A DNA stretch of 64,000 bases. Source: Sulfuricurvum sp. Lineage in GTDB: Bacteria; Campylobacterota; Campylobacteria; Campylobacterales; Sulfurimonadaceae. Under the pieces are notes generated by a model. It was not told the origin of the DNA and ran no database searches. It saw only the letters and a list, made by a program, of their open reading frames with translations. The translations under genes were made by a program, and so were the position numbers. The stretch spans positions 1 through 64,000 of the forward strand of contig NZ_JAQTNN010000008.1 of NCBI RefSeq assembly GCF_028713855.1, written 5' to 3'. Shown here in pieces: positions 25,448 to 40,108 of the stretch. Every line of letters starts with the position of its first letter. The stretch's first letter is position 1.

Positions 25448-26494
25448 TCAAAAAAATTCGATATCGCCGGATTCGGCATCATCAGGATGAACCAAGGCGA
25501 TAATCTGCTGGATACTGAGCGATGTCGGCTGATGAATATGGTGGATATTGCGCATAGCCATACTCTCTGTTGAAAAACGCTGAACATAGAGGCTTAAATC
25601 GATGCACACGGCGTCAAAAAGTCTTAATACCAAATCCGATTTATCCTTCAACAAAGCTATGAAATCATTTGCTTCGGCTATGAGACGGGCTAATTCTTTT
25701 AAATTTTCCGCCAATGGATCTAGAAAAGGGGAATAACGAAACAGGATATTGGATATTTTGGAAAGATCCTCATGGGTTTTGTGAATGTGGCGCATCTGCG
25801 CATTTTGAGTGTAAAGAGCAAGTTCATCGGGAATCTCATTTAACAGATCTCTCATCTCTTCGCTGTCATCGGCAATAAAAACTACTTTCTCTTCCCCTTG
25901 GTCTTCGTCTTTTGCAAAATACTCTTTTAAAAGTTCGGATCTCTCCTCCGGCTGAGTTTGTGAATAGAGTGTTCCAAGCTGCTCGTTTTTAACGTTAAGT
26001 GCATGCAAATGCGATGTAAGCAGTTTAACCACTTTTTTAAGCTTTTTTCGCTCCTCATGAAGGGTATCAAAGAGTTCAAGATTGACTTTTTGGGCATCAG
26101 CATCCCGACAAACCGGATAAAGCGCAGTGAGCATATCATTCAAATTTATCGGTTTTAGAATAAAACTGCTTATACCGTTGCGCATCAGATTGATAAGAAT
26201 AGTGGATTCATCGTGCGCTGAAATCGCAATAATCTTTTGTTCGGGATTGATTTCCCGGATACGCTCAATCATATCGATCCCGTTCATCACCGGCATATTG
26301 ATATCGGTAATAATGATGTCATAATGAGCGTCGTTGTATTGTGAAAGTCCCTCTTCACCATTTTGAGCAAGATCGACACGTGCGAAAAAAGGTTCAAAAA
26401 CTTTTTTTGTCTCTTCTCTGAGTGCCTCGTTATCTTCGACATACAATACGTTCAATCGGAGAGAAAACTTTTGTAGATCTTTAAACGTAGCCAT
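25448..26494 (-). CDS. Response regulator with an unrecognised helical C-terminal domain
   Basis: A 348-residue protein. The receiver domain has phosphoacceptor D64 (IITDINMPVMNG) and Lys in ILKPIN. The remainder (about 130-348) is helical with no enzymatic motif that I know. Its last third aligns with the last third of the receiver protein at 38675-40108 (LFDAVCIDLSLYV against LLEHLGLDLVSWR). Both end in an acidic tail, here SGDIEFF. The C-terminal part is therefore probably a shared interaction module. The gene has a good Shine-Dalgarno sequence (AAAGGG) and lies 25 bp after the CZB receptor gene and 1 bp before the CHASE kinase gene. Confidence 0.8.
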   Translation of the reverse strand: MATFKDLQKFSLRLNVLYVEDNEALREETKKVFEPFFARVDLAQNGEEGLSQYNDAHYDIIITDINMPVMNGIDMIERIREINPEQKIIAISAHDESTILINLMRNGISSFILKPINLNDMLTALYPVCRDADAQKVNLELFDTLHEERKKLKKVVKLLTSHLHALNVKNEQLGTLYSQTQPEERSELLKEYFAKDEDQGEEKVVFIADDSEEMRDLLNEIPDELALYTQNAQMRHIHKTHEDLSKISNILFRYSPFLDPLAENLKELARLIAEANDFIALLKDKSDLVLRLFDAVCIDLSLYVQRFSTESMAMRNIHHIHQPTSLSIQQIIALVHPDDAESGDIEFF

Positions 26495-27686: not shown

Positions 27687-28709
27687 CTAGAGCATCTCAA
27701 GTATACCGTTTGCCACTTGTGAAAGCGGCAGCTGTTTCTCGACGCCTCCCAATTCATAGGCTACTTTCGGCATGCCGTACACAACGCAGCTCGCCTCATC
27801 CTGACCGATGGTTTTGGCTCCCGCATTACGCATCGAAAGAAGACCTCGGGCACCGTCACCCCCCATCCCTGTCAGAATAACACCGATTGCATTCGCTCCG
27901 GCAATTTTAGCCACCGAGTTAAACAGTACATCCACCGAAGGACGATGTCCCGAAACCTTTTCGCCACTGCCGATTTCAACATAATAGCGCGCACCCGAAC
28001 GACGTACGACCATATGATAATCCCCCGGAGCGATTAATGCGACTCCCGGGGTAATCGAGTCGCCGTTGCGGGCTTCGCGTACTTCCATTGCACACAATCC
28101 ATTTAATCTATCCGCAAACGGTGCCGTAAAGTTTGCCGGCATATGCTGAACAATAACGGTTCCCGGGGCATTTCTCGGTAATCCCATCAATACGTCTTTA
28201 AGCGCTTCGGTTCCGCCGGTCGATGCGCCGATAGCCAAAATTTTATGGGTTGTTTCTGCCAATGAGGTGGTATTGGCTTGCTGAGGATTCGTCAAAATCC
28301 GCTTTTGAACACGTACTTTTGAAGCGACTTTAATTTTGGAGAGAAGCTCGTCTCGCATCTCATCTTTACCGTCATAAATATGCGAATGGGGTTTTGGAAC
28401 AAAATCGACCGCACCTGCTTCCAGTGCTTCAAGCGTTGTTTTGGCTCCGTTTTGCGTTAATGATGAAACCATAATGACGGGAATAGGCATATAGTGCATG
28501 AGACGTTTTAAAAAGGTAATCCCGTCCATACGAGGCATCTCCACATCCAGACAAACGACGTCAGGACGCAGTTCAACGATTTTATCCCGTGCTATATAGG
28601 CATCCGAAGCGGTCGCCACCACCTCTATCATAGGATCGGATTCCAAAATTTCTCTCAAAACCGCCCGTGCGGTTGCACTGTCATCGACAATCAATACCCG
28701 AATTGCCAT
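27687..28709 (-). CDS. cheB: CheB protein-glutamate methylesterase/deamidase
   Basis: A 340-residue CheB with both domains: a receiver (D55 in VVCLDVEMPRMDG, Lys in VPKPHSH) and a C-terminal methylesterase with the catalytic triad S163 (GASTGG), H189 (QHMP) and D285 (GMGGDGA). It removes methyl groups from chemoreceptors when phosphorylated by CheA. A receiver-bearing CheB differs from the receiver-less CheB of Campylobacter jejuni, in line with this being a distinct chemotaxis system. The ATG directly abuts the cheD stop codon. Confidence 0.97.
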   Translation of the reverse strand: MAIRVLIVDDSATARAVLREILESDPMIEVVATASDAYIARDKIVELRPDVVCLDVEMPRMDGITFLKRLMHYMPIPVIMVSSLTQNGAKTTLEALEAGAVDFVPKPHSHIYDGKDEMRDELLSKIKVASKVRVQKRILTNPQQANTTSLAETTHKILAIGASTGGTEALKDVLMGLPRNAPGTVIVQHMPANFTAPFADRLNGLCAMEVREARNGDSITPGVALIAPGDYHMVVRRSGARYYVEIGSGEKVSGHRPSVDVLFNSVAKIAGANAIGVILTGMGGDGARGLLSMRNAGAKTIGQDEASCVVYGMPKVAYELGGVEKQLPLSQVANGILEML

Positions 28710-29195
28710 TTATACTCCCCCCTTTACCATATCGCTACGCTGCGCGTATTTTAAGAGCACTTTTCCCCGTTCCAAATCAAACTGAATCTTCCGTCCGTTT
28801 TGTCCTCCGACATCTTCGGCAACTAAAACAATGTTGTACTCTCGTAAAATCTCTTTGGCTACCAATATATTTTTTTGTCCGATCATCATCGCATCCGAAA
28901 TCCCCATATTCAAAGAGGCCCCTCCGAATATTTTTGCTTGCAGATTTTTGGGATTTGATCCCTTCATGATCATACTTTCGATCAATTTTGGGATCGCTAT
29001 GTTTCCGAACTTCGGTGATTGCAATCCGTTCCCGTTCCAAAACGGAAGCAGATAATGGTTCATTCCGCCGATACCCAGCGCAGTATCATACAAACAGACG
29101 GCAACGCACGACCCTAAGACTGTCGAAATCGCATGCGGCGCACTGTCCACGTGTATCTGTCCCACATGGATGAACGTCGAGCTTCCCTGTATCAT
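28710..29195 (-). CDS. cheD: CheD chemoreceptor glutamine deamidase
   Basis: A 161-residue CheD with the catalytic cysteine C30 in STVLGSCVAVCLYD and the histidine H47 in GGMNHYLLP. CheD deamidates glutamines on receptor methylation helices and can interact with CheC-type phosphatases; no CheC is present here. The 5' end overlaps the preceding kinase-like gene by 1 bp (TGATG-type junction), and the 3' end abuts cheB without a gap. Confidence 0.95.
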   Translation of the reverse strand: MIQGSSTFIHVGQIHVDSAPHAISTVLGSCVAVCLYDTALGIGGMNHYLLPFWNGNGLQSPKFGNIAIPKLIESMIMKGSNPKNLQAKIFGGASLNMGISDAMMIGQKNILVAKEILREYNIVLVAEDVGGQNGRKIQFDLERGKVLLKYAQRSDMVKGGV

Positions 29196-30004
29196 CAGAG
29201 TTCGATTGCATCATCGAACGATTCAAATAAAAATTCATTTGAACCGCACGCATCGGAATCGGCACATGCACTTTGAAGCGGCAACGTAATAATAAAGGTC
29301 ACTGATGTTTCATCGGTGGTGTAATCAATCCCGCCATCCATACGTTCACATAGCTCTCTGGCTACACTCAAGCCTAATCCCAGACCGTGATTCCCCTCCG
29401 GTCCTTCGGCAAAACGGGTGAAAATCTGAGGTTTATACTCAACCTGTGGCGCTTTCCCCTGATTTTTTATCGCAATAATCATCTCACTCTTGTTCTCGAA
29501 AATATCCACATGAACTACTTCATCTACGAGTCCGTAATCACATGCATTTCCCAAAACATTTTTGATGATAAGATAGAGTTTTTTGGGATCTGAAACTATC
29601 TTTTTGTCTAATTTATTGGTCACAGTTATCGTGATATTTTTTTCATTAATACGGTATTTAAATGCTTCAATCGCTTCTTTAACCAGTACTTTCGGATCGA
29701 CAAGGGCATAGGTGATATCGATTTTACCGCTCTCTATCTCAGAAGCAGCCACCAAATTTTGAATACGTGAATCCAATAAAAGAGCTTCTTCATGTACCAG
29801 TGCAAAAATTTCCTTGCGTAGATCGCCGCCCATGGGGGCTAAATGGGGAATCATCCCCAAAATAGCCGTCATCGGATTGTTAAGTTCGCTTGCAATCAAC
29901 GATAAAAATCGTGATTTTGCTTTTTCGCTTTCAATGAGCTGCTTGTTAAGCTCTAAAATTTTTCGGCTTAAAAAAGCAATTTCATCATTTTTAATTTTTT
30001 CCAT
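29195..30004 (-). CDS. Histidine-kinase-like protein lacking the phospho-histidine
   Basis: A 269-residue soluble protein with the layout HisKA (about 25-90) and HATPase (about 110-245) and no sensor domain. The H-box position reads IASELNNPM: Ser39 stands where SHELRTPL has its phosphorylated His. In the ATPase part the G1 box is KNQGKAP, with Asn for the conserved Asp and Ala for the second Gly; the N box (LGNACDYG) and G2 box (HGLGLGLS) are kept. It is thus unlikely to autophosphorylate and is better seen as a pseudokinase or scaffold. It lies between the PAS/receptor-like gene (3 bp away) and cheD (1-bp overlap), so it is an integral part of the chemotaxis operon. Confidence 0.85.
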   Translation of the reverse strand: MEKIKNDEIAFLSRKILELNKQLIESEKAKSRFLSLIASELNNPMTAILGMIPHLAPMGGDLRKEIFALVHEEALLLDSRIQNLVAASEIESGKIDITYALVDPKVLVKEAIEAFKYRINEKNITITVTNKLDKKIVSDPKKLYLIIKNVLGNACDYGLVDEVVHVDIFENKSEMIIAIKNQGKAPQVEYKPQIFTRFAEGPEGNHGLGLGLSVARELCERMDGGIDYTTDETSVTFIITLPLQSACADSDACGSNEFLFESFDDAIEL

Positions 30005-30007
30005 TGA

Positions 30008-31381
30008 TTATTCTTCCATTTTCTTGATTGTACGCATCTCTTCTTTTAGATGATTCAGCTGAGTATCAATAGCTTTTGATTTTTCTATCCTATGGCGATT
30101 TTCATTGGAAAAATTCAGACCCATTTTTTGCATTAATTCAATCTCTTGAGTCGTCTCTTTCACCAAACTTTTAAGTTGCGAAAAAATCACTCCGAAACGT
30201 ACCGATTCATCATGACTGCCTGCCGCTTCGATAATGCCGTAAATCTGGATATAGCCCAAATACATCATTTGCTGCTCCAGTTGATCCAAATACTTCAGTG
30301 CCTCTTGTATATGCTGATCAAGCTTACGTTGTAACACATTGGATTTATTTGAATATTCCATAACCAAAGCAAACAAATCACAAATATTTTCAATGAGTTC
30401 CTCAATCTTCAACTCATTATCATTATGTGATACTTCCTGAATAAAATAAGTCACCATCTCAATCTGTAAACGCATCCCTGCTACGGAGAAAACAATGGCA
30501 TTAAGCGCGAGTGACAATTGTTGCACAACGGTATCGATCTCGGCAATCAACGTATCATTTTGTTTGGCATTTAACCGGATATCGCTCGCTAAAACACCGA
30601 ATGTCTCTCCGCCGTTTGCGACTTTGTACGATGAAACCGAAGCGTTCAATGACAAGAAAACAACATCACGTGCCAATTCACGTAATTTCAACCCCTTCTC
30701 TTCAAACATCGATTTTACCTGAGTAAATAAATCGATTTTTTCAAACCATTCATCGTATTGATTCATCAATTCGGTACTGTAGCAATACACCGTTTTAAGT
30801 TTTTCAAGCGTAGGTGAGGGCGCATGATAATCTTCATTAATCAGAGCTTTGGAAACGTTTTGTTGTCTCTCTTTTAACTCTTGCAATAATGCATCGTTCA
30901 TAAAATGGTCATAATCTTCATATCCGTGCATTTTTAAGAGTTCGGGTAATAGTTGACCGCTCTCTTCCATGCCGCCATTGCCCTCAGTTCTCAACAACGT
31001 TGCATACACTTCTTTAATCGCTGCAAAAAGTTTAGTGTTCGGTTTGATCCGAATCGATATATAACGCTCCCCCAGTGGAAATACTGCTGCTAATACCCAG
31101 TAGTATCCCCCATCTTTGCTTTTATTTTTTACATAGGCGACAATCGGTTTCTCTGCCTTCAAATAATCCCATAATGTCTTAAAAATAATACGGGGCATAT
31201 CGGGATGGCGGATAATGTTGTGAAAATTCCCGATTAATTCTTCTTTCGAATAGCCGCTGATTCGGACAAACACATCGTTACCCGACAAGATTGTACTGGC
31301 ATGATCGGTGATCGAGAAAAAGAGTTCATTGATATCGAATTTGGCCTCTTTAAGTGCCAGAGCATGTTCTGTTTTGTCCAT
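30008..31381 (-). CDS. PAS protein with a degenerate chemoreceptor signalling hairpin
   Basis: A 457-residue soluble protein. Residues 10-115 are an Aer-type PAS domain with IRHPDMP and a YYW pair, the type that binds FAD in Aer. About 120 helical residues follow. A segment near 245-290 then aligns without gaps to the chemoreceptor tip: VFLSLNASVSSYKVANGG against [17 protein letters not shown], followed by TFGVLASDIRLNAK against [14 protein letters not shown]. Residues that bind CheA/CheW or hold receptor trimers (Glu, Arg and the AGE loop) are changed. The rest is helical and charged. It probably acts as a redox or energy sensor whose receptor part no longer drives CheA directly. It sits between cheR and the pseudokinase gene. 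Confidence 0.78.
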   Translation of the reverse strand: MDKTEHALALKEAKFDINELFFSITDHASTILSGNDVFVRISGYSKEELIGNFHNIIRHPDMPRIIFKTLWDYLKAEKPIVAYVKNKSKDGGYYWVLAAVFPLGERYISIRIKPNTKLFAAIKEVYATLLRTEGNGGMEESGQLLPELLKMHGYEDYDHFMNDALLQELKERQQNVSKALINEDYHAPSPTLEKLKTVYCYSTELMNQYDEWFEKIDLFTQVKSMFEEKGLKLRELARDVVFLSLNASVSSYKVANGGETFGVLASDIRLNAKQNDTLIAEIDTVVQQLSLALNAIVFSVAGMRLQIEMVTYFIQEVSHNDNELKIEELIENICDLFALVMEYSNKSNVLQRKLDQHIQEALKYLDQLEQQMMYLGYIQIYGIIEAAGSHDESVRFGVIFSQLKSLVKETTQEIELMQKMGLNFSNENRHRIEKSKAIDTQLNHLKEEMRTIKKMEE

Positions 31382-31391
31382 AATGAACCCT

Positions 31392-32216
31392 TTATACGCG
31401 TTGATAAATCGACGAACCCAAAAGTTTTAAGGTTTCGCGATGAGTTGTCAGTGATTCTGAACTCCCCAAAAAGAGAGGAGCGCCTTTGGGCAAGAGCGTT
31501 GTAAAACGCCCGATCAGATCGTGACGGGTAACATCATCAAAATAGATCATGACATTACGGCAAAAAATCATATCAAACCGATTTTTGAAAAAAAACGGGT
31601 CGGTGACGAGATTGTACTTTCGAAACAACACTTTCTCTCGGAGATGCGGCGCTATTTGGTAACTGATCCCATTCTCGGAACGTATTTTGTCAAAAGCACG
31701 ATGGACTATCTCTTTGGGAAGAGGCTCAACATTTTTAGCCTCATAATGTCCTTTAATCGCATGGGACAATACTTTGTGAGAAATATCGGTGGCCAGAATT
31801 TTGATATCCCAAGAGTCAAAATCGCTTAGGTGATGCTGCAAAAACATCAAAATCGTATAAGGTTCTTCTCCGCTTGAGCACCCTGCCGACCATATCCGAA
31901 TTTTTTTCTCCCGTTTGGATGCTATCAGTGAGGGTAAATAACTCTCCAGCCATGTCCACTGTGCACTCTCACGGAAAAATGAGGTGACATTGGTCGATAT
32001 CGCACTCACGAAAAAAGAGAGCTCTTCTCCGCTGGTGTCCTGAACTAAAAAATCATAATAATTTCTAAACGATTTCATACCCAACTGGTTCAGCCGTTTG
32101 TTTAGCCTCCCTTTGATCAGAGTACTCTTTTGGTCTGAGAGTGATATCCCCACAGTTTCGTAAATATACTTTCGAAACAGGGAAAATTCTTCAGGCTTTA
32201 ACTCGATTTCAAACAT
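31392..32216 (-). CDS. cheR: CheR chemoreceptor methyltransferase
   Basis: A 274-residue CheR from the ATG at 32216, chosen because it has GGAAG upstream and overlaps the cheA stop by only 8 bp; the open frame extends to 32252. An N-terminal helical domain (FSLFRKYIYETVGI) is followed by the SAM-binding fold: TNVTSFFRE, IWSAGCSSGEEPYT as motif I, then DMIFCRNVMIYFDD. CheR methylates receptor glutamates. Located between cheA and the PAS/receptor-like gene. Confidence 0.96.
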   Translation of the reverse strand: MFEIELKPEEFSLFRKYIYETVGISLSDQKSTLIKGRLNKRLNQLGMKSFRNYYDFLVQDTSGEELSFFVSAISTNVTSFFRESAQWTWLESYLPSLIASKREKKIRIWSAGCSSGEEPYTILMFLQHHLSDFDSWDIKILATDISHKVLSHAIKGHYEAKNVEPLPKEIVHRAFDKIRSENGISYQIAPHLREKVLFRKYNLVTDPFFFKNRFDMIFCRNVMIYFDDVTRHDLIGRFTTLLPKGAPLFLGSSESLTTHRETLKLLGSSIYQRV

Positions 32217-34308
32217 TAGTGGCTTCCATAAGAGGACGTAATTCATCCACATTCAAAATCAATGCAATATCTCCGCTGCCTAAAATTGCTCCGCCGGAAA
32301 TCTCTTTTAGTTTTGCCAGTGATTTACCCAGCGGTTTAATGACAACCTGCTGGCGACCGACGAGTTCATCAACCATGATAGCGATCCGACCCGATTCGGT
32401 TTCGACGCAGACCAAAATCCCTTCCCACGGCTCAATTCTCTGTGTCGAAAGTTCAAAGATGTCGCTGAGGCGGATAATAGGGAGATGTTGTCCGCGAAGC
32501 GATACAAATTCCCCTTTCTCTTTTAGCGCATGAACGATTTCCTGTTCAGGTCGGAACGATTCAACGACGCTAAGGGTCGGGATAATGTATATCTCACCGG
32601 CTGCTTGAACCAGCATACCGTCGATAATCGCCAATGTCAGAGGCAGAACCATCGAGAAGGTCGTCCCTTCCCCTTCTTTAGACTCAATCTCGATCTTGCC
32701 GCGCAGTTTTTCGATGGAAGTTTTTACTACATCCAGTCCGACACCGCGTCCGGATAGATCGCTGATCGCATCGGCAGTCGAGAAGCCCGGTTGCATAATC
32801 AGACCGAAGATTTGAGAATCGGTGAGATTTTCATCGCCGGAGATGATCCCCCGTTCGATCGCTTTACGATACACTTTATCTTTGTTGATCCCGCGACCGT
32901 CGTCACTGACACTGATGACGATACTGCCGCTTTTGTGGTAAGCTCGCAGAGTTATGTTCCCCTCTACTTTTTTACCCGCTGCCAGACGCTCAGTTGCATC
33001 TGCTTCCAGACCATGGTCGATAGCGTTACGGATAATATGGATCAACGGATCGGAAAGGCTGTCGATCATCGTTTTATCAATCTCCGTCTCTTCACCCTGC
33101 ACGTTTAGATGAAGCTCTTTTCCGGTCTTTTTCGAGGTATCACGTACCACCCGTTTCATCTTATCGAAGGTATCGCGAATAGCAACCATCCGTAAACTCA
33201 TAACCCGATCTTGAATCCGTTTGGTTATCTTCGAAAGTGTCTCGATGGTTCGGCTGATCGATTCATCCTCGATAGCACTGATTTTTTCATTTTGGGCAAT
33301 AAAATTCTGAGCGATCACCAGTTCACCGACCGAGTCAAACAACTCATCAAGTTTGAACGTATCGATTCGAATGGTTGATTTCGAAGCGGTGACACTGCCG
33401 GTTTCTCTTCGGTCTGACGCTCTGCGATCTTCTCCGGCTCTCATCTCGATAAGCGGCTCTTCGACGAGAGGCGTTTGTACTTTCTCTGCTGCAGGGAGAG
33501 GGATTGTTTTAACCGCATACTCATGATCGAATAAAAATTCAAAATTTTCGCTTACCTCCTCAGCACTTTGAGGCGTTAAAAGGACGATACCCGCGTGGAC
33601 AATCGCATTCTCATCCGAGTTAAACGATTCGAGCGGTTGAATATTTTCCAGATTGAAAAAGCTCTCCAACGACACCGCTTTCTCTTTTAACAACCCTAAA
33701 AACAGCAAATGATCGAATCCGCGTTTGTAGGCATCCCTGTCCAATGTCAAATCAATCCGGTAGAGGTTCAACCCTTCTTCCTGAGACATTTGGTGGATTT
33801 GAATGCTATTTGCCATATCCGATTCAAATTGATCATCGCAGTTCAAACCGAATTCTGATGCCAAATCGATCATCATCGGTTCTTGAGACTGCACCTCTAC
33901 GACAAGCACACCTCCGTTACGTTTTGACGATATCAGATTTTTGATTTTGAATAAACACTCACCATAATCTGACGGCAAATCAGGAAGGGCATCGAGTTCA
34001 CAGGTCATCACCTCTTTGATGATATCCACGCTTCCTACGAACAGTTCCAGATGATGTTCTTCCACCTCTTCTTTACTACTGCGGTAGTGATCGAGTACAT
34101 CTTCAAAATGATGAACAAACTCGCCCAAGCGCGTAAATCCAAATGCATTGGCATTCCCTTTGAGAGTATGAACACCCCGAAAAATTTCATTCAATAGGTC
34201 AAAATCAGCTGAGTTCTCTTCAAATCGAAGAATATCAACATCGAGTTTTTCGATAATCTCACCCGCTTCTTCGATAAATATCGCTTTGACTTGCTCTTGT
34301 TTAGTCAT
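32209..34308 (-). CDS. cheA: CheA chemotaxis histidine kinase without receiver domain
   Basis: A 699-residue CheA. The P1 HPt domain has H47 in GVHTLKGNANAFGF. A P2-like region (about 150-270) and linker follow, then the P3 dimerisation helices (DELFDSVGELVIAQN), the P4 ATPase domain (HIIRNAIDHGLE, VSDDGRG, GRGVGLDVV) and the P5 CheW-like domain to the C terminus. There is no C-terminal receiver, unlike the CheAY fusion usual in Campylobacterota; a separate cheY lies in the same operon. The start lies 28 bp after the receptor gene and the stop overlaps cheR. It phosphorylates CheY and CheB and possibly the other receivers of the locus. Confidence 0.97.
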   Translation of the reverse strand: MTKQEQVKAIFIEEAGEIIEKLDVDILRFEENSADFDLLNEIFRGVHTLKGNANAFGFTRLGEFVHHFEDVLDHYRSSKEEVEEHHLELFVGSVDIIKEVMTCELDALPDLPSDYGECLFKIKNLISSKRNGGVLVVEVQSQEPMMIDLASEFGLNCDDQFESDMANSIQIHQMSQEEGLNLYRIDLTLDRDAYKRGFDHLLFLGLLKEKAVSLESFFNLENIQPLESFNSDENAIVHAGIVLLTPQSAEEVSENFEFLFDHEYAVKTIPLPAAEKVQTPLVEEPLIEMRAGEDRRASDRRETGSVTASKSTIRIDTFKLDELFDSVGELVIAQNFIAQNEKISAIEDESISRTIETLSKITKRIQDRVMSLRMVAIRDTFDKMKRVVRDTSKKTGKELHLNVQGEETEIDKTMIDSLSDPLIHIIRNAIDHGLEADATERLAAGKKVEGNITLRAYHKSGSIVISVSDDGRGINKDKVYRKAIERGIISGDENLTDSQIFGLIMQPGFSTADAISDLSGRGVGLDVVKTSIEKLRGKIEIESKEGEGTTFSMVLPLTLAIIDGMLVQAAGEIYIIPTLSVVESFRPEQEIVHALKEKGEFVSLRGQHLPIIRLSDIFELSTQRIEPWEGILVCVETESGRIAIMVDELVGRQQVVIKPLGKSLAKLKEISGGAILGSGDIALILNVDELRPLMEATNV

Positions 34309-34336: not shown

Positions 34337-35782
34337 TTACTCTTTGATTCCAACCATTTTAGCTAGGATGCGTACCGTTTCTATCATAGAAGCGGCCTGC
34401 ATGTTGAGCTCTTCGGCTGCCGCTGCGGTCTCCTCAGAATTAGCCGCAACATGTTGAGTCACTTGATCGACTTTTCCCATTGCCTGATTGATTTGTACCA
34501 TCCCCTCTGACTGTTCACGTCCGGCAATAGAGATTTCACCGATCAAATCAGAGACTTTTTTCGATTGCTCCGCAATTTCTTGAAATGAGGTATGGGTTGC
34601 ATGCGCAATTTGGTTTCCCTCTTCAATCTGCCCGACAACCTCTTCAATGATTGCAGAGGTCTCTTTTGCCGCAGATGCCGCACGTTGAGCAAGATTCCGA
34701 ACTTCATCGGCAACAACGGCAAACCCAAGACCGTGTTCTCCGGCACGCGCTGCTTCAACTGCCGCATTGAGCGCCAAAAGATTGGTTTGAAATGCAATCT
34801 GATCAATCGCTTTGATGATGCCGGAAATTTTAACTGCCGATTCGGTAATAGTCTGCATAGAATGCGCTAACTGTTCCCCTCTTCCGTATCCTGCACGGGC
34901 AGAATCGTTGGCATTTTTAGCCAAAATATCCGCTTGACGGGCATTATCGGTATTTTGTGCATTGATAGCAGTACTTTGCTCCAACGTTCCACTTACCTCT
35001 TCAACGCTTGCGGCTTGTTCGCTTGAGGCTTGCGCTAATATTGAGGACGAAGATGCTACTTGATCACTTGTAGCGGTAATTTGCATGGCACCTTCACGAA
35101 TTGAGGCAACACTGGCGGTAATCGGAAGAGTGATAGAACGGATCATATAAGCTGCAACCATCAATGTCCCGAAAAAAATGATAGAAATAATCGCAATGAG
35201 CTCAGTTTCCAGTGCATGCTTTTGAGTTTCTATCTCCTCTTTCATTTGCTCTTGTTTAACTTTTACCTGTTCAACAATCGTATCGATGATATGTGATGCA
35301 TCACGATCTTTACCTTTTACAGCGTGATCGGCAATCGTAAATGCAACTGAGGGGTCAGCTTTACGATACAGCTCAAGCGCCTGCATATAATCACTGTTCA
35401 ACTTGTCATACGAAGTATAAAATTGATCCACATTGAGCAATATTTTATCCCCGTTCGAATCCACTTTAAGCTGTTCCTGAAGCTTCTTCATCGACTCCAA
35501 AGTCTTTTGCTGTGATGATTTAAACCCGTTCAAATATTTTTGATACGCTTTTTCGTCCGTCCCACGCAGTAGAATATTTTTCCATTCCTGTACTTGGGTT
35601 TTAAATTCAACTTGTGCGCTGCGAGAGTATTCTATCTGTGCTGCCGTGACCTCACCTGCTTGAATACTCATAGTAAGAATTTGGCTATATCTAACATAGC
35701 CAAATAAAAGTATCGCCATCATACTGCCTATGATTACGGTTAACAAAAGCAATATTTTTCCGCGTACAGTGAAATTGGACAT
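34337..35782 (-). CDS. Methyl-accepting chemotaxis protein (4HB-type sensor)
   Basis: A protein of 481 residues from the ATG at 35782, which has a strong GAGGGAG Shine-Dalgarno sequence five bases upstream (an in-frame start at 35809 lacks one). TM1 is at about 8-30. A helical periplasmic domain of about 150 residues of the four-helix-bundle kind follows, then TM2 near 190-212 and the signalling domain with tip [18 protein letters not shown] and nearby methylation helices rich in EE/QE pairs. No C-terminal CheR-binding pentapeptide (it ends MVGIKE). Its signalling domain is nearly the same as that of the receptor at 36122-37762, so the two are paralogues. Confidence 0.95.
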   Translation of the reverse strand: MSNFTVRGKILLLLTVIIGSMMAILLFGYVRYSQILTMSIQAGEVTAAQIEYSRSAQVEFKTQVQEWKNILLRGTDEKAYQKYLNGFKSSQQKTLESMKKLQEQLKVDSNGDKILLNVDQFYTSYDKLNSDYMQALELYRKADPSVAFTIADHAVKGKDRDASHIIDTIVEQVKVKQEQMKEEIETQKHALETELIAIISIIFFGTLMVAAYMIRSITLPITASVASIREGAMQITATSDQVASSSSILAQASSEQAASVEEVSGTLEQSTAINAQNTDNARQADILAKNANDSARAGYGRGEQLAHSMQTITESAVKISGIIKAIDQIAFQTNLLALNAAVEAARAGEHGLGFAVVADEVRNLAQRAASAAKETSAIIEEVVGQIEEGNQIAHATHTSFQEIAEQSKKVSDLIGEISIAGREQSEGMVQINQAMGKVDQVTQHVAANSEETAAAAEELNMQAASMIETVRILAKMVGIKE

Positions 35783-35857
35783 CAAAACTCCCTCTCTGGT
35801 AAAACTCAAAAATATTAAATTATTTAGAACTCAAAACCGCTTTGGGCTCTACTTGAT

Positions 35858-36121: not shown

Positions 36122-37762
36122 TTAAAACTCTTTCAAATCGTCTTCATGCAGAGGAAATATATCATCAGCTTTAGAAGAAGAAATCGCCTTACGTTGAGGC
36201 TTTACCGGTGAACGGTGGGCAATAACCGGATTTGGGTCTAAATGATGGAGATTTACTTTGCGCACAGCATGAGAGGGTGCATCATTTTCCATCCCGACCA
36301 TTTTTGCAAGAATTCGAACCGTTTCCATCATCGAAGTAGCTTGTGCGTTAAGTTCTTCAGCAGCTGCAGCCGCTTCTTCGGAGTTAGCCGCTACTTGCTG
36401 AGTTACTTGATCGACTTGACCCATCGCCTGATTGATTTGCCCCATACCTTCTGCCTGTTCTTTACCGGCGATAGCGATTTCTCCAATCAAATCGGATACT
36501 TTTTTCGATTGTTCAACAATCTCCTGGAACGATGTATGCGTTGCAAGGGCAATTTGATTCCCCTCTTTGATCTGAGTAACAACCTCTTCGATGATAACGG
36601 AAGTCTCTTTCGCCGCAGACGCCGCGCGTTGTGCCAAATTACGTACCTCATCGGCAACAACCGCAAACCCTAAACCGTGTTCACCGGCACGCGCCGCTTC
36701 AACTGCTGCATTGAGCGCCAAAAGATTGGTTTGGAATGCAATTTGATCAATCGTTTTAATAATTCCGGAGATTTTAGCCGCCGATTCGGTAATCGCGTGC
36801 ATGGAGTGAGAGAGTTGTTCACCTTTTTCATATCCTGCTTTTGCCGAATCGTTTGCATTTCTTGCCAAAATATCGGCTTGACGTGCATTGTCAGTATTTT
36901 GAGTGTTGATCGCAGTGGATTCTTCGAGCGTTGCGCTTACCTCTTCGACACTGCTTGCCTGCTCACTTGCCCCTTGGGCAAGCGATGAAGAGGATGCAGC
37001 AACTTGATCCGATGCGGAAGTAATCTGCATCGCGCCGTCACGGATTGATGTGACGCTTGCAGTAATCGAACGGGTGATCGAGCGGATCAATACCCATGCT
37101 AAAAGAATGGCAAAAAGGATCGAAATAAACGCAACAATTATAAACATTTGTTTGTAGCTACTCGATTTCTCTTTTGCTGCTGTACTACTATCTTTGATTT
37201 CTTTCTTATTGATATCATAAATATCTTGTAAACCGTTCATAAAGTTAGTACGATACGTGCGCATCTCTTCTATTTGATCTCCCATCTGAGTGAAAAGTGC
37301 ATTGATCTCGGCTGTATCATTACTTTGTGATAAGGTATTCACAGTTTGTTTGAATTTATTGCTTTGCTCACGCCATTTTTTGTAGTCATCTTGAAGATCA
37401 TCCCATATTTTACTTTCATTAGGCGCTTTTTTTATAGAATCGTACTCTTTGATCCCCTTATCTAAACGTTCAAACCCTTCATCAATTTTACTGTATGCAT
37501 CGGCCATTTTAGACTGCATTTTAGGGTCTCCGTCTAATCCACGTGCACGGTTTTGTTGAATAGCGACTAATTGTGTTCCGTTACGGATTGTCCCAACACT
37601 GACAATACTTGGGACACTGACATCTGCCATTTCAGTTATATCAGACTGCCATCCATCGGTCGCTTTAAATCCCATAAAGCCCAAAAGGACCATTGCTATC
37701 ACCATGACACCTGTAAGCAGCATCAGCTTTGTTTGCAATACCATATTTTCCAACCAATTCAT
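36122..37762 (-). CDS. Methyl-accepting chemotaxis protein with acidic C-terminal tail
   Basis: A protein of 546 residues from the ATG at 37762, chosen because AAGGGGAAT precedes it and it follows the cheW stop by 1 bp (the open frame reaches 37804). TM1 is at about 12-33. A helical periplasmic sensor (about 35-190) is followed by TM2 (MFIIVAFISILFAILLAWVL) and the signalling domain with tip [18 protein letters not shown]. After the receptor part there is a tail of about 45 residues, Pro/His/Lys-rich and ending HEDDLKEF. That end resembles the CheR-tethering pentapeptide (NWETF) in spacing but lacks the Trp. Confidence 0.95.
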   Translation of the reverse strand: MNWLENMVLQTKLMLLTGVMVIAMVLLGFMGFKATDGWQSDITEMADVSVPSIVSVGTIRNGTQLVAIQQNRARGLDGDPKMQSKMADAYSKIDEGFERLDKGIKEYDSIKKAPNESKIWDDLQDDYKKWREQSNKFKQTVNTLSQSNDTAEINALFTQMGDQIEEMRTYRTNFMNGLQDIYDINKKEIKDSSTAAKEKSSSYKQMFIIVAFISILFAILLAWVLIRSITRSITASVTSIRDGAMQITSASDQVAASSSSLAQGASEQASSVEEVSATLEESTAINTQNTDNARQADILARNANDSAKAGYEKGEQLSHSMHAITESAAKISGIIKTIDQIAFQTNLLALNAAVEAARAGEHGLGFAVVADEVRNLAQRAASAAKETSVIIEEVVTQIKEGNQIALATHTSFQEIVEQSKKVSDLIGEIAIAGKEQAEGMGQINQAMGQVDQVTQQVAANSEEAAAAAEELNAQATSMMETVRILAKMVGMENDAPSHAVRKVNLHHLDPNPVIAHRSPVKPQRKAISSSKADDIFPLHEDDLKEF

Positions 37763-37763
37763 A

Positions 37764-38261
37764 TTATTCCCCTTCACTTGTTTGTATTTTTTGAATCTGT
37801 TCAAGACTTAAAAGTTCGTCCGCTTCAAAGAGCTTCAAAACATCCAAAATCATCACCACGTTCTCTTCCATTTGTGCCATTGAGCAGATAAAATCGGTAT
37901 CGATCTGACCACCGAATTTTGGGGGTTCAGACATATTGGCTGCATCAATCGACGCCACCTCTTCGACACGGTCGACGATAAAACCGATATTGACTTTTTC
38001 CACTTCGACGATGATAATCGCCGTGTGCATGTCGGCTTCTCTCTCTTCCATTCCAAACCGCAGCCGTGTATCGACAACAGGGATAATCGACCCGCGCAGA
38101 TTAATGACACCGCGCATGTACTCAGGTGTTTTGGGGACATTAGTCACCTTCATCATGGCGATAATCTCTTTAATTCTGCCGATGGCTATACCGTATTGCT
38201 CCCCTCCTAAAAAGAAAGTGAGATACCGTTCCCGTCTTGATTGAGCAGTGTTTTGTTCCAT
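37764..38261 (-). CDS. cheW: CheW chemotaxis coupling protein
   Basis: A 165-residue single-domain CheW: FFLGGEQYGIAIGRIKEII, then VPKTPEYMRGVINLRGSIIPVVD, which is the conserved receptor/CheA-binding region, and VDRVEEVASI. It couples receptors to CheA. It lies 4 bp downstream of cheY and 1 bp before a receptor gene. Confidence 0.97.
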   Translation of the reverse strand: MEQNTAQSRRERYLTFFLGGEQYGIAIGRIKEIIAMMKVTNVPKTPEYMRGVINLRGSIIPVVDTRLRFGMEEREADMHTAIIIVEVEKVNIGFIVDRVEEVASIDAANMSEPPKFGGQIDTDFICSMAQMEENVVMILDVLKLFEADELLSLEQIQKIQTSEGE

Positions 38262-38265
38262 AACG

Positions 38266-38652
38266 TTATACTCCTAATACCATTTTAAGTGATTTCACCA
38301 GTTTGTCATCACTAAAAGGCTTCACCATCCACCCTGTTACTCCGATCTCTTTACCCGCCATTTTCATCTGTTCAGAACTCTCTGTGGTAAGGATGATAAT
38401 CGGTTTCGTTTTGTACCGGTCATCCATTTTAATTGATCTGGCTAAATCCAAACCGTTCATCTGAGGCATATTGACGTCGCTAATCAAAAGGTCAAAGTTT
38501 TCACTGCCTGCCTGCAGCGCACTCAAAAGCTCCGCCGGATTCAAATACGATTTGAACTCAATAACACCGCTGCTGATCATCTGATCCAACGCCAACTCAG
38601 CCGTTGCGATAACCGCTCTTGAATCATCCACTATAATTACTCTCTTTGCCAT
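38266..38652 (-). CDS. cheY: CheY-like single-domain response regulator
   Basis: A 128-residue stand-alone receiver: acidic pair D9/D10, phosphoacceptor D59 in LLISDVNMPQMNG, Thr in IILTTESS and Lys in MVKPFSD, so all catalytic residues are kept. With a CheA that lacks a receiver, this is the likely direct phosphoacceptor. Whether it acts on the flagellar switch or on another target cannot be told. A Shine-Dalgarno sequence (AGGAGG) lies before the ATG. Confidence 0.9.
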   Translation of the reverse strand: MAKRVIIVDDSRAVIATAELALDQMISSGVIEFKSYLNPAELLSALQAGSENFDLLISDVNMPQMNGLDLARSIKMDDRYKTKPIIILTTESSEQMKMAGKEIGVTGWMVKPFSDDKLVKSLKMVLGV

Positions 38653-38674: not shown

Positions 38675-40108
38675 TTAAAAAAATTCCATGTCATTATCAT
38701 CATCAACATCCAGCTCTTTGTTTCCGATAATCCCCTCTATCTGCATACAGGAACTGAAAAAAGAACTGTCCAGATAGTGAATATCCGCTGTATCTTGCAA
38801 GGCGAAAATATGTTCTCTCCATGAAACGAGATCCAATCCCAAATGTTCCAGCAACATCACAAGTGTTTTGATTTTTGCCCTATCCTGCGTCACCAAATCA
38901 GCGTGCTCTTTTAAAAAGGTACCGAGTGATGAAAGAGCATACGCCAGTGCGGTAAATTCAAAAAGGTTATTAATCCCCCGCACGTAGATTCCCAATACTC
39001 CATCGGCAAAATCCCGTAGATTTTCTACTGTCGGTTCGGAATCAAAAATACGGAGTTTTTCTCCCCATTCTTCATCCAAACTCTCCAAATCGCGGATCTC
39101 GTCAAGAACATCTCCTCCGATATCGCGAACGTAATCGATAGCCGCTGTTTTATGAACAAAACTTTGACGCAGCATCTCTTTTTCTTCGGTATCGATAACC
39201 CTTTTCTCTTTGATCACGTCAGGAGTGTTCTCTACCATCCCAGACTTGGGTATCTCATGTTGCATGAGGGATTGCAGCACAGCTTCTTCAGCAGGTTTTT
39301 GAACCGGCGCTACAGCAGCCTTTTGCACTTTTGTTTCATCAGAAATACGGATTCGAATACAAGCAATATTGTCCTGTACAATACTATTCTCCCCTAAATC
39401 CTCAAGAAGCATCGCTACTCTGGGATGAGAAGGTATCGCCTCTGCAAATTTCATGGTGACAAAAATCTCTTCAAAACTCTCTTCGATGATGATACTCATA
39501 CTGCGATTATCACGTGTTCCCTGACGCATCAGCTCATATAACAGTTCTATGCTGGAATCGACACGGTAACACGATGCCACAATTTTATTTTCACACTGGG
39601 TCAATATCCACATCCCAAAATCCATCATCGCTTCTGCATCACCGATCTCAAAGATCGTTTTAAAATTCCGTACATCTGAGCAAAACGGATTCAGCGCTTT
39701 TTTGGGAGAAAGTTTTTTGTAATCGCCCCCTTTAGAGCGGATGAAATCACCGAAATTTTTGAGCTTAAAGCGTATCAGTTCTTTATCAATCGGTTTGTGA
39801 ATATAAGCCCCGACGCCGATCTGTGCCATATTGGCTTCCATATGCGGATCCATTACAGCGGTCACGGCCATGATTACCGTTTCCGGATAACGTTTTTTTA
39901 TGATTTTAGATGCTTCAAAACCGTCCAAACGAGGCATCATCACATCCATTAAAATAATATGGGGATGCCACTCTTCGACCGACTCAAGCGCCTCGATTCC
40001 ATCACACGCTTCCCGTATCTCAAAACCCTCTATCTTTCGACAGATCGCTTTTAATATCAGACGATTGTCTTCGACATCGTCAACAATCAGTAGTTTTATA
40101 TCATTCAT
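38675..40108 (-). CDS. Response regulator with large unrecognised C-terminal region
   Basis: A 477-residue protein and the first gene of the chemotaxis operon. The receiver domain has D10/D11, phosphoacceptor D55 (IILMDVMMPRLDG) and Lys in IHKPID. Residues 130-270 form an alpha/beta region I cannot place, 270-320 are a linker rich in Ala/Pro/Glu, and 320-465 are helical. That last part aligns with the end of the receiver protein at 25448-26494. The C terminus is very acidic and ends DDDNDMEFF. A GGTGGATT Shine-Dalgarno sequence precedes the ATG. A CheZ-like phosphatase or an adaptor role is conceivable, but no CheZ catalytic motif is evident. Confidence 0.78.
   Translation of the reverse strand: MNDIKLLIVDDVEDNRLILKAICRKIEGFEIREACDGIEALESVEEWHPHIILMDVMMPRLDGFEASKIIKKRYPETVIMAVTAVMDPHMEANMAQIGVGAYIHKPIDKELIRFKLKNFGDFIRSKGGDYKKLSPKKALNPFCSDVRNFKTIFEIGDAEAMMDFGMWILTQCENKIVASCYRVDSSIELLYELMRQGTRDNRSMSIIIEESFEEIFVTMKFAEAIPSHPRVAMLLEDLGENSIVQDNIACIRIRISDETKVQKAAVAPVQKPAEEAVLQSLMQHEIPKSGMVENTPDVIKEKRVIDTEEKEMLRQSFVHKTAAIDYVRDIGGDVLDEIRDLESLDEEWGEKLRIFDSEPTVENLRDFADGVLGIYVRGINNLFEFTALAYALSSLGTFLKEHADLVTQDRAKIKTLVMLLEHLGLDLVSWREHIFALQDTADIHYLDSSFFSSCMQIEGIIGNKELDVDDDNDMEFF

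Follow-up and report, generated by a model that had tools for sequence, protein, structure and literature searches.

What does a PAS protein with a chemoreceptor-like tip do in the middle of a chemotaxis gene cluster? The 64,000-nucleotide stretch of Sulfuricurvum DNA analysed here (the window, for which all coordinates given below lie on the minus strand) encodes such a protein, of 457 residues, at 30008..31381. Its reading frame is intact and open, full-length orthologues are present in 37 of 151 genomes of the family, and its nearest named relatives, at 62–63% identity, are found in Sulfuricurvum genomes. A first-pass annotation of the sequence described it as a soluble, receptor-derived protein with an eroded tip that looked to have lost direct kinase control and might now signal to a neighbouring pseudokinase. 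In the model that best fits our results, and that we hold a little likelier right than wrong, the protein is a soluble FAD/redox sensor and takes its place in the CheA/CheW array of its cluster as an asymmetric single-chain pseudo-dimer. Single-chain receptors and receptors with two signalling domains are already known; what is new here is that a single chain carries two unlike tips together with a FAD-type sensor, and that this combination is conserved within a chemosensory cluster. We refer to it below as the PAS-double-tip protein.

The N-terminal sensor is an Aer-type PAS domain (residues 20–115; 31037..31324), as had been proposed. Pfam PAS_3 matched it with an E-value of 1.1e-12, and E. 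coli Aer was its closest solved relative both by sequence (31cj, E 3e-23, and also 8dik) and by fold (8dik, Z 16.0, 1.6 Å across 121 residues). Five PAS residues, H54, R58, W71, N86 and R111, are invariant in 39 homologous sequences and, read off the pairwise alignment with Aer, correspond to H53, R57, W70, N85 and R115, the residues that contact FAD in Aer (PMC9668731). We infer from these residues that the PAS domain of the PAS-double-tip protein binds FAD. The resemblance to Aer extends to an MCP-type tip, here in the first of two hairpins, and to a likely redox input (PMC9668731). However, Aer is a membrane homodimer with a HAMP domain and one canonical hairpin per chain, whereas in the PAS-double-tip protein no membrane part or HAMP was recognised and two altered hairpins lie in a single chain.

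The genome also encodes stand-alone CetB-like PAS proteins, which share the helices that follow the PAS domain (residues 117–175; 30857..31033) as far as residue 161. These proteins, of 162–172 residues, are 45–47% identical to residues 8–161, and the genes of the two that we checked adjoin or overlap canonical receptor genes, like CetA/CetB. Both the PAS domain with its following helices and the position of such CetB-like genes next to chemoreceptor genes recall CetB of Campylobacter jejuni (PMC2628428). However, CetB has no signalling hairpin and acts via a separate receptor, whereas the PAS-double-tip protein carries sensor and double tip in one chain. In genome G000, several PAS matches on contigs C1 (about 282–320 kb) and C9 (about 16–54 kb) are paired, with equal scores and in inverted order, which points to duplication of a large segment or to an artefact of assembly.

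The receptor-derived part begins with hairpin 1 (residues 190–320; 30422..30814), whose tip core, tip 1, spans residues 237–271 (30569..30673). A search with the MCP profile, which the first-pass annotation had named as a check, gave a divided answer: MCPsignal matched residues 235–348 with an E-value of 4.9e-5, yet the score of 23.7 bits is below the curated cut-off of 34.6, and the Pfam pipeline would therefore miss this protein. The same profile was found in 28 of 31 orthologous hairpin-1 segments, and its median score was 20.7 bits for hairpin-1 sequences versus 2.0 for the reversed-sequence control. When a hairpin-1 profile was compared to the PDB, 13 of the 14 matches were chemoreceptors (best E 7.5e-5), with the tip in register, and a profile of the whole helical part detected, through its hairpin-1 segment, frames of receptor length throughout the phylum (E about 1e-10). 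These matches place hairpin 1 clearly within the MCP superfamily, and the protein as a whole is a divergent relative of that superfamily (PF00015) and no standard member. Pfam thresholds hide receptor-derived parts of this kind. No membrane segment was found by eye in the sequence or in the AlphaFold2 (AF2) model, no HAMP domain was matched by Pfam, and NCBIfam returned essentially PAS-family matches only; Rfam found two tRNAs over the 64-kb window and nothing else. The PAS-double-tip protein is a soluble, single-chain chemoreceptor derivative, and with an MCP-superfamily hairpin and no apparent membrane helix its earlier description as receptor-derived and soluble holds.

A score below the Pfam MCP cut-off might also be read as the mark of a decaying, functionless receptor gene. 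However, intact full-length reading frames in 37 genomes, invariant positions in both PAS and tips, and a fixed gene order refute decay, to which we give practically no weight. The gapless alignment of tip 1 with the receptor tip is as first described. In Tsr numbering, the equivalents of L380, N381 (here N246), V384, F396, V398 and R404 are kept, Lys stands for R388, and E385 is replaced by Ala or Ser. Of the contacts that were said to be replaced, Glu385, which is Ser in this protein, and the AGE loop are indeed altered, but the change of Arg388 to Lys is a conservative one.

A second hairpin with a tip-like segment of its own, absent from the first-pass annotation, follows a short connecting loop (residues 321–325; 30407..30421). 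This hairpin 2 covers residues 326–456 (30014..30406) and its tip core, tip 2, residues 372–407 (30161..30268), within which the segment MMYLGYIQIYGIIEAAGSHDESVRFGVIFSQLKSL (residues 373–407) aligns without gaps to the receptor tip. HMMER searches of hairpin 2 against Pfam and PDB sequences returned coiled-coil noise only. By hhalign, hairpin 2 matched an MCP-tip profile with a score of 27.5 (E 6e-4), and of 32.2 (E 7e-5) after distant relatives had been added; controls reached at most 20.8 in 75 neighbouring-family windows and 16.9 in the best of 30 column shuffles. Hairpins 1 and 2 of the 30008–31381 protein, compared directly, scored 13 versus 21 for shuffles, and the internal repeat is detectable only in f8, a second family of the same order, with homologues of 441–481 residues. 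There, hairpin 1 matched hairpin 2 in register at 36.6 (E 1e-5), while hairpin 2 matched the MCP profile at 44.4 (E 6e-7) and hairpin 2 of the 30008–31381 protein at E 2e-17, all of these profile E-values being those of single comparisons. Like its counterpart, the f8 hairpin 2 alone gave coiled-coil noise in HMMER searches against Pfam and PDB sequences. Three of the four f8 proteins scanned exceed the Pfam MCP cut-off through hairpin 1 (37.2, 41.5 and 44.2 bits). A tandem-hairpin origin is well supported by these alignments, in which hairpin 2 is linked to MCP tips and to hairpin 1 by transitivity through f8.

An AF2 monomer model of the PAS-double-tip protein, built from 39 sequences (pLDDT 87.5, pTM 0.83), has four long helices, at residues 190–252 (with a small break at 215), 258–320, 326–388 and 396–456. 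In agreement with the tip hairpin expected by the first-pass annotation, helix 258–320 packs onto helix 190–252 after a turn at 253–257. A model of an f8 protein, made from a separate ten-sequence alignment, has the same four helices (pLDDT 84.5, pTM 0.80). The helical parts of both models matched designed single-chain four-helix bundles (Z 18.9 and 19.7 over about 195 residues), which indicates a common arrangement and nothing more. No receptor signalling chain was among the matches listed by Foldseek and VIA for the helical part; this is uninformative because receptor chains have two helices and form four only as a dimer, the four-helix arrangement being built from two chains (Kim et al. 1999, as cited in PMC4692393). 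The predictions strongly support an up-down-up-down four-helix bundle whose two turns lie together at the same end, which would make the protein a covalent mimic of a receptor dimer; being monomer runs, they cannot reveal chain swapping or dimerisation.

Two signalling domains in one soluble chain could also be arranged differently. In DosM, the best known double-signalling-domain receptor, one domain lies at each end of an extended rod (PMC7534058), and the tandem signalling domains of the PAS-double-tip protein might form a small rod of this type, with helices 2 and 3 continuous, the tips at opposite ends, and two baseplates bridged. We consider this very unlikely. Both AF2 models place a turn between the hairpins, and the distance from tip to tip takes values of 132, 134, 135, 138–140, 144, 146 and 150 residues, nearly all of the change falling in a polar stretch around residues 321–330, at or beside the connecting loop. 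Such changes would break a continuous helix, and their concentration in the polar stretch argues for a turn. DosM and other F9-class double-signalling-domain receptors likewise combine two MCP signalling domains within a single soluble chain (PMC7534058, PMC9321776), but the PAS-double-tip protein differs from DosM in its predicted same-direction tips, its short helices, its non-canonical tips, its attached PAS domain and the single-domain cheW of its cluster.

The first-pass annotation regarded the tip as eroded; the conservation of both tips speaks against this. Across 33 orthologues, the top residue reaches a mean frequency of 0.81 in the PAS domain, 0.80 and 0.78 on the two sides of tip 1, 0.76 and 0.66 on those of tip 2, and 0.46–0.63 in the distal helix halves. 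Of the sequence that follows the PAS domain, the two near-tip regions rank with the best conserved, and the Glu missing from tip 1 is still present in tip 2. At the positions that make trimer contacts in Tsr (F373, N381, E385, R388 and V398; PMC8466855), tip 1 has R, N, A/S, K and V, and tip 2 has M, Y and E followed by two variable residues. Neither tip retains the full set, Phe373 being Arg in the one and Met in the other, and what remains of this near-invariant set is divided between them in a complementary way: tip 1 has Asn381 without Glu385, whereas tip 2, which also keeps the F396 equivalent, has Glu385 with Tyr in place of Asn381. In another soluble receptor, Ala is accepted at some of these positions (PMC8466855). 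In f8, both N381 and E385 are kept in both tips.

Within trimers of receptor dimers, one subunit of each dimer occupies the trimer axis, while its partner is peripheral and faces CheA/CheW (PMC4692393). These roles are hard to separate in normal trimers because both subunits have the same sequence in different places. Single-chain Tsr has been engineered to separate them and suffered from subunit swapping (PMC4692393). The engineered dimers support both chemotaxis and the control of CheA (PMC4692393), and thus a single-chain design can work. The PAS-double-tip protein resembles the engineered Tsr~Tsr and Tar single-chain domains in its covalent receptor-dimer design (PMC4692393), but their tips are identical and canonical, whereas its own are complementarily diverged and joined to a FAD-type PAS domain. 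Natural soluble single-chain forms have also been reported, from Rhodospirillum centenum and a small number of further microbes (PMC4692393). We tentatively hypothesize, with a confidence that stays short of even, that the PAS-double-tip protein is a natural asymmetric single-chain receptor dimer in which a tandem hairpin duplication allowed the tips to split the trimer-axis and CheA/CheW-facing roles, and in which a cytoplasmic FAD-PAS tunes the array. The f8 tips, near-canonical at N381/E385, and the complementary loss in the PAS-double-tip family form a natural series from which the inner and outer roles become readable from evolution.

The gene lies in a same-strand run of chemotaxis genes that begins with a receiver protein (38675–40108), a cheY-type single receiver (38266..38652) and a single-domain cheW (37764..38261), the last two assigned by sequence and by their conserved cluster position. 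Next come two receptor genes, one for a canonical membrane chemoreceptor with methylation motifs (36122..37804; MCPsignal 159 bits) and one for a second canonical chemoreceptor (34337..35809), and then cheA (32209..34308), which encodes Hpt, dimerisation, HATPase and CheW domains and no receiver domain. After cheR (31392..32252) follow the PAS-double-tip gene, a histidine-kinase-like gene, cheD (28710..29195), cheB (27687..28709), a CZB-type receptor and another receiver; the second receptor and the cheA, cheR, cheD and cheB genes were assigned by Pfam. The order cheY-cheW-receptor-cheA-cheR-PAS-double-tip-kinase-like-cheD-cheB is nearly fixed across genomes. Among the 151 family genomes, 37 have the PAS-double-tip gene, 41 a close cheA and 35 both, so that the gene is present in 35/41 genomes with this cheA and in 2/110 without a detected one (Fisher 1e-25); in these two it is near contig ends. 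The PAS-double-tip gene is absent from five or six genomes that have this cluster type, and it is dispensable for the cluster. Three changes on the cheA tree explain its presence and absence, and its gains and losses are few. Together, these data strongly support the PAS-double-tip protein as a conserved accessory of one CheA/CheW/CheR/CheD/CheB cluster.

The histidine-kinase-like protein encoded immediately downstream (29195..30004) was the partner favoured by the first-pass annotation, which suggested that direct kinase control had been lost and that the protein might now signal to this neighbour. Its character as a pseudokinase is confirmed: the H-box His is absent in 28/28 orthologues (the H box reads ASEL/ANEL), the N and G2 boxes are retained, and the G1-box Asp is changed to Asn only in the clade of the 29195–30004 protein, sister clusters keeping the Asp. 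The two genes are, furthermore, directly adjacent in nearly all clusters that have both, and the loss of His in all copies, with that of the G1 Asp in this clade, would also suit a dedicated signalling partner. However, the distribution of the two genes gives no support for an exclusive two-protein module. Five clusters of the same type carry the kinase-like gene directly after cheR without a PAS-tip gene, and nine sister clusters likewise have a His-less kinase-like gene right after cheR and no PAS-tip gene; conversely, the PAS-tip gene of L139 has no kinase-like gene in its cluster, and the homologues in f8 and those that are orphans lack one as well. The kinase-like gene is therefore a core cluster part and no dedicated partner of the PAS-double-tip protein. 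The conserved C-terminal tail of the kinase-like protein also resembles that of the cluster receptor, pointing to another, shared partner. We consider signalling through this neighbour quite unlikely.

Conserved acidic-hydrophobic C-terminal tails are in fact found on four proteins of the cluster: the kinase-like protein 29195–30004 (NEFLFESFDDAIEL), the receptor 36122–37804 (IFPLHEDDLKEF) and the receivers 38675–40108 (DDNDMEFF) and 25448–26494 (SGDIEFF). Each is conserved over about 15–25 genomes, and those of the receptor and the kinase-like protein are recognisable in the sister clusters. These tails do not match the classical xWxxF CheR/CheB pentapeptide and may represent a shared docking peptide.

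The conserved tips, together with a location among che genes that include cheA and cheW, suggest that the PAS-double-tip protein has kept a docking function, and we infer both docking and kinase control. In the pseudo-dimer model, the double tip would dock into the receptor array of the cluster beside normal receptor dimers, forming mixed trimers, and/or bind CheW/CheA. Because both lie in one chain, the tips could specialise, tip 1 (Asn381) taking the inner position at the trimer axis and tip 2 (Glu385) the outer one that faces CheA/CheW, or the reverse. The redox state of FAD would then bend or loosen the bundle and so bias CheA, adding a likely redox input to a cluster that otherwise senses only through its own few receptors. 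At about 62 residues, the helices fall short of the usual length of receptor signalling domains, and their fit into the array is uncertain. No methylation consensus site was found in the PAS-double-tip protein, and only 1/33 orthologues has one, whereas the two canonical membrane receptors of the cluster carry two sites apiece; direct adaptation by CheR/CheB is therefore not expected for the PAS-double-tip protein.

The lack of a methylation motif would also fit a decoy or regulator of array assembly, in which the double tip caps or spaces receptors or CheW and, depending on redox state, lowers or localises the array with no switching of CheA. In such a protein the trimer contacts might be kept in part, as they are here (E385 is lost from tip 1, N381 from tip 2 and F373 from both), while both tips remain strongly conserved, and the cluster would not require the gene. 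Nevertheless, we think this unlikely, as the conserved FAD-type sensor suggests a graded input over a fixed cap, and the less diverged f8 proteins hold N381 and E385 in both tips.

The output of the cluster may not be the flagellar motor. In the sequence of its CheY (38266–38652), the phospho-Asp is followed by Val and Tyr106 is replaced by Trp, which by the criteria of PMC9321776 argues against direct FliM binding and makes direct motor control by this CheY seem unlikely. Additional, non-F3 chemosensory classes have been reported from Sulfurimonas and Sulfuricurvum (PMC9321776); the gene order resembles these, CheA lacks the F3-class receiver domain, and the cluster probably belongs to class F7. 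CheO, a Campylobacterota chemotaxis protein reported in Sulfuricurvum, has been described as having no known sensory domain and was set apart from the PAS-double-tip protein by this description only.

Relatives of the PAS-double-tip gene also occur in other contexts. In f8 the PAS-tip gene closes another type of che cluster (cheA-cheW-cheB-receiver-receptor-gene), and paralogues also occur as orphans. Distant relatives in Phycisphaeraceae, Chloroflexi and Shinella are away from che genes, one Shinella copy having a receptor gene nearby. Genome G102 has two PAS-tip copies (L149 8045–9406 and L148 8323–9681), one of them without kinase-like, cheD and cheB genes alongside; both are at contig ends and have common first residues, and the copies may therefore break the assembly. 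Finally, the relatives at L146 7442–9130 and L145 6829–8490 combine a PAS domain and a tip-like helical region with a C-terminal CZB zinc-binding domain (E 1.7e-10 in L146), and L146 sits in another che cluster.
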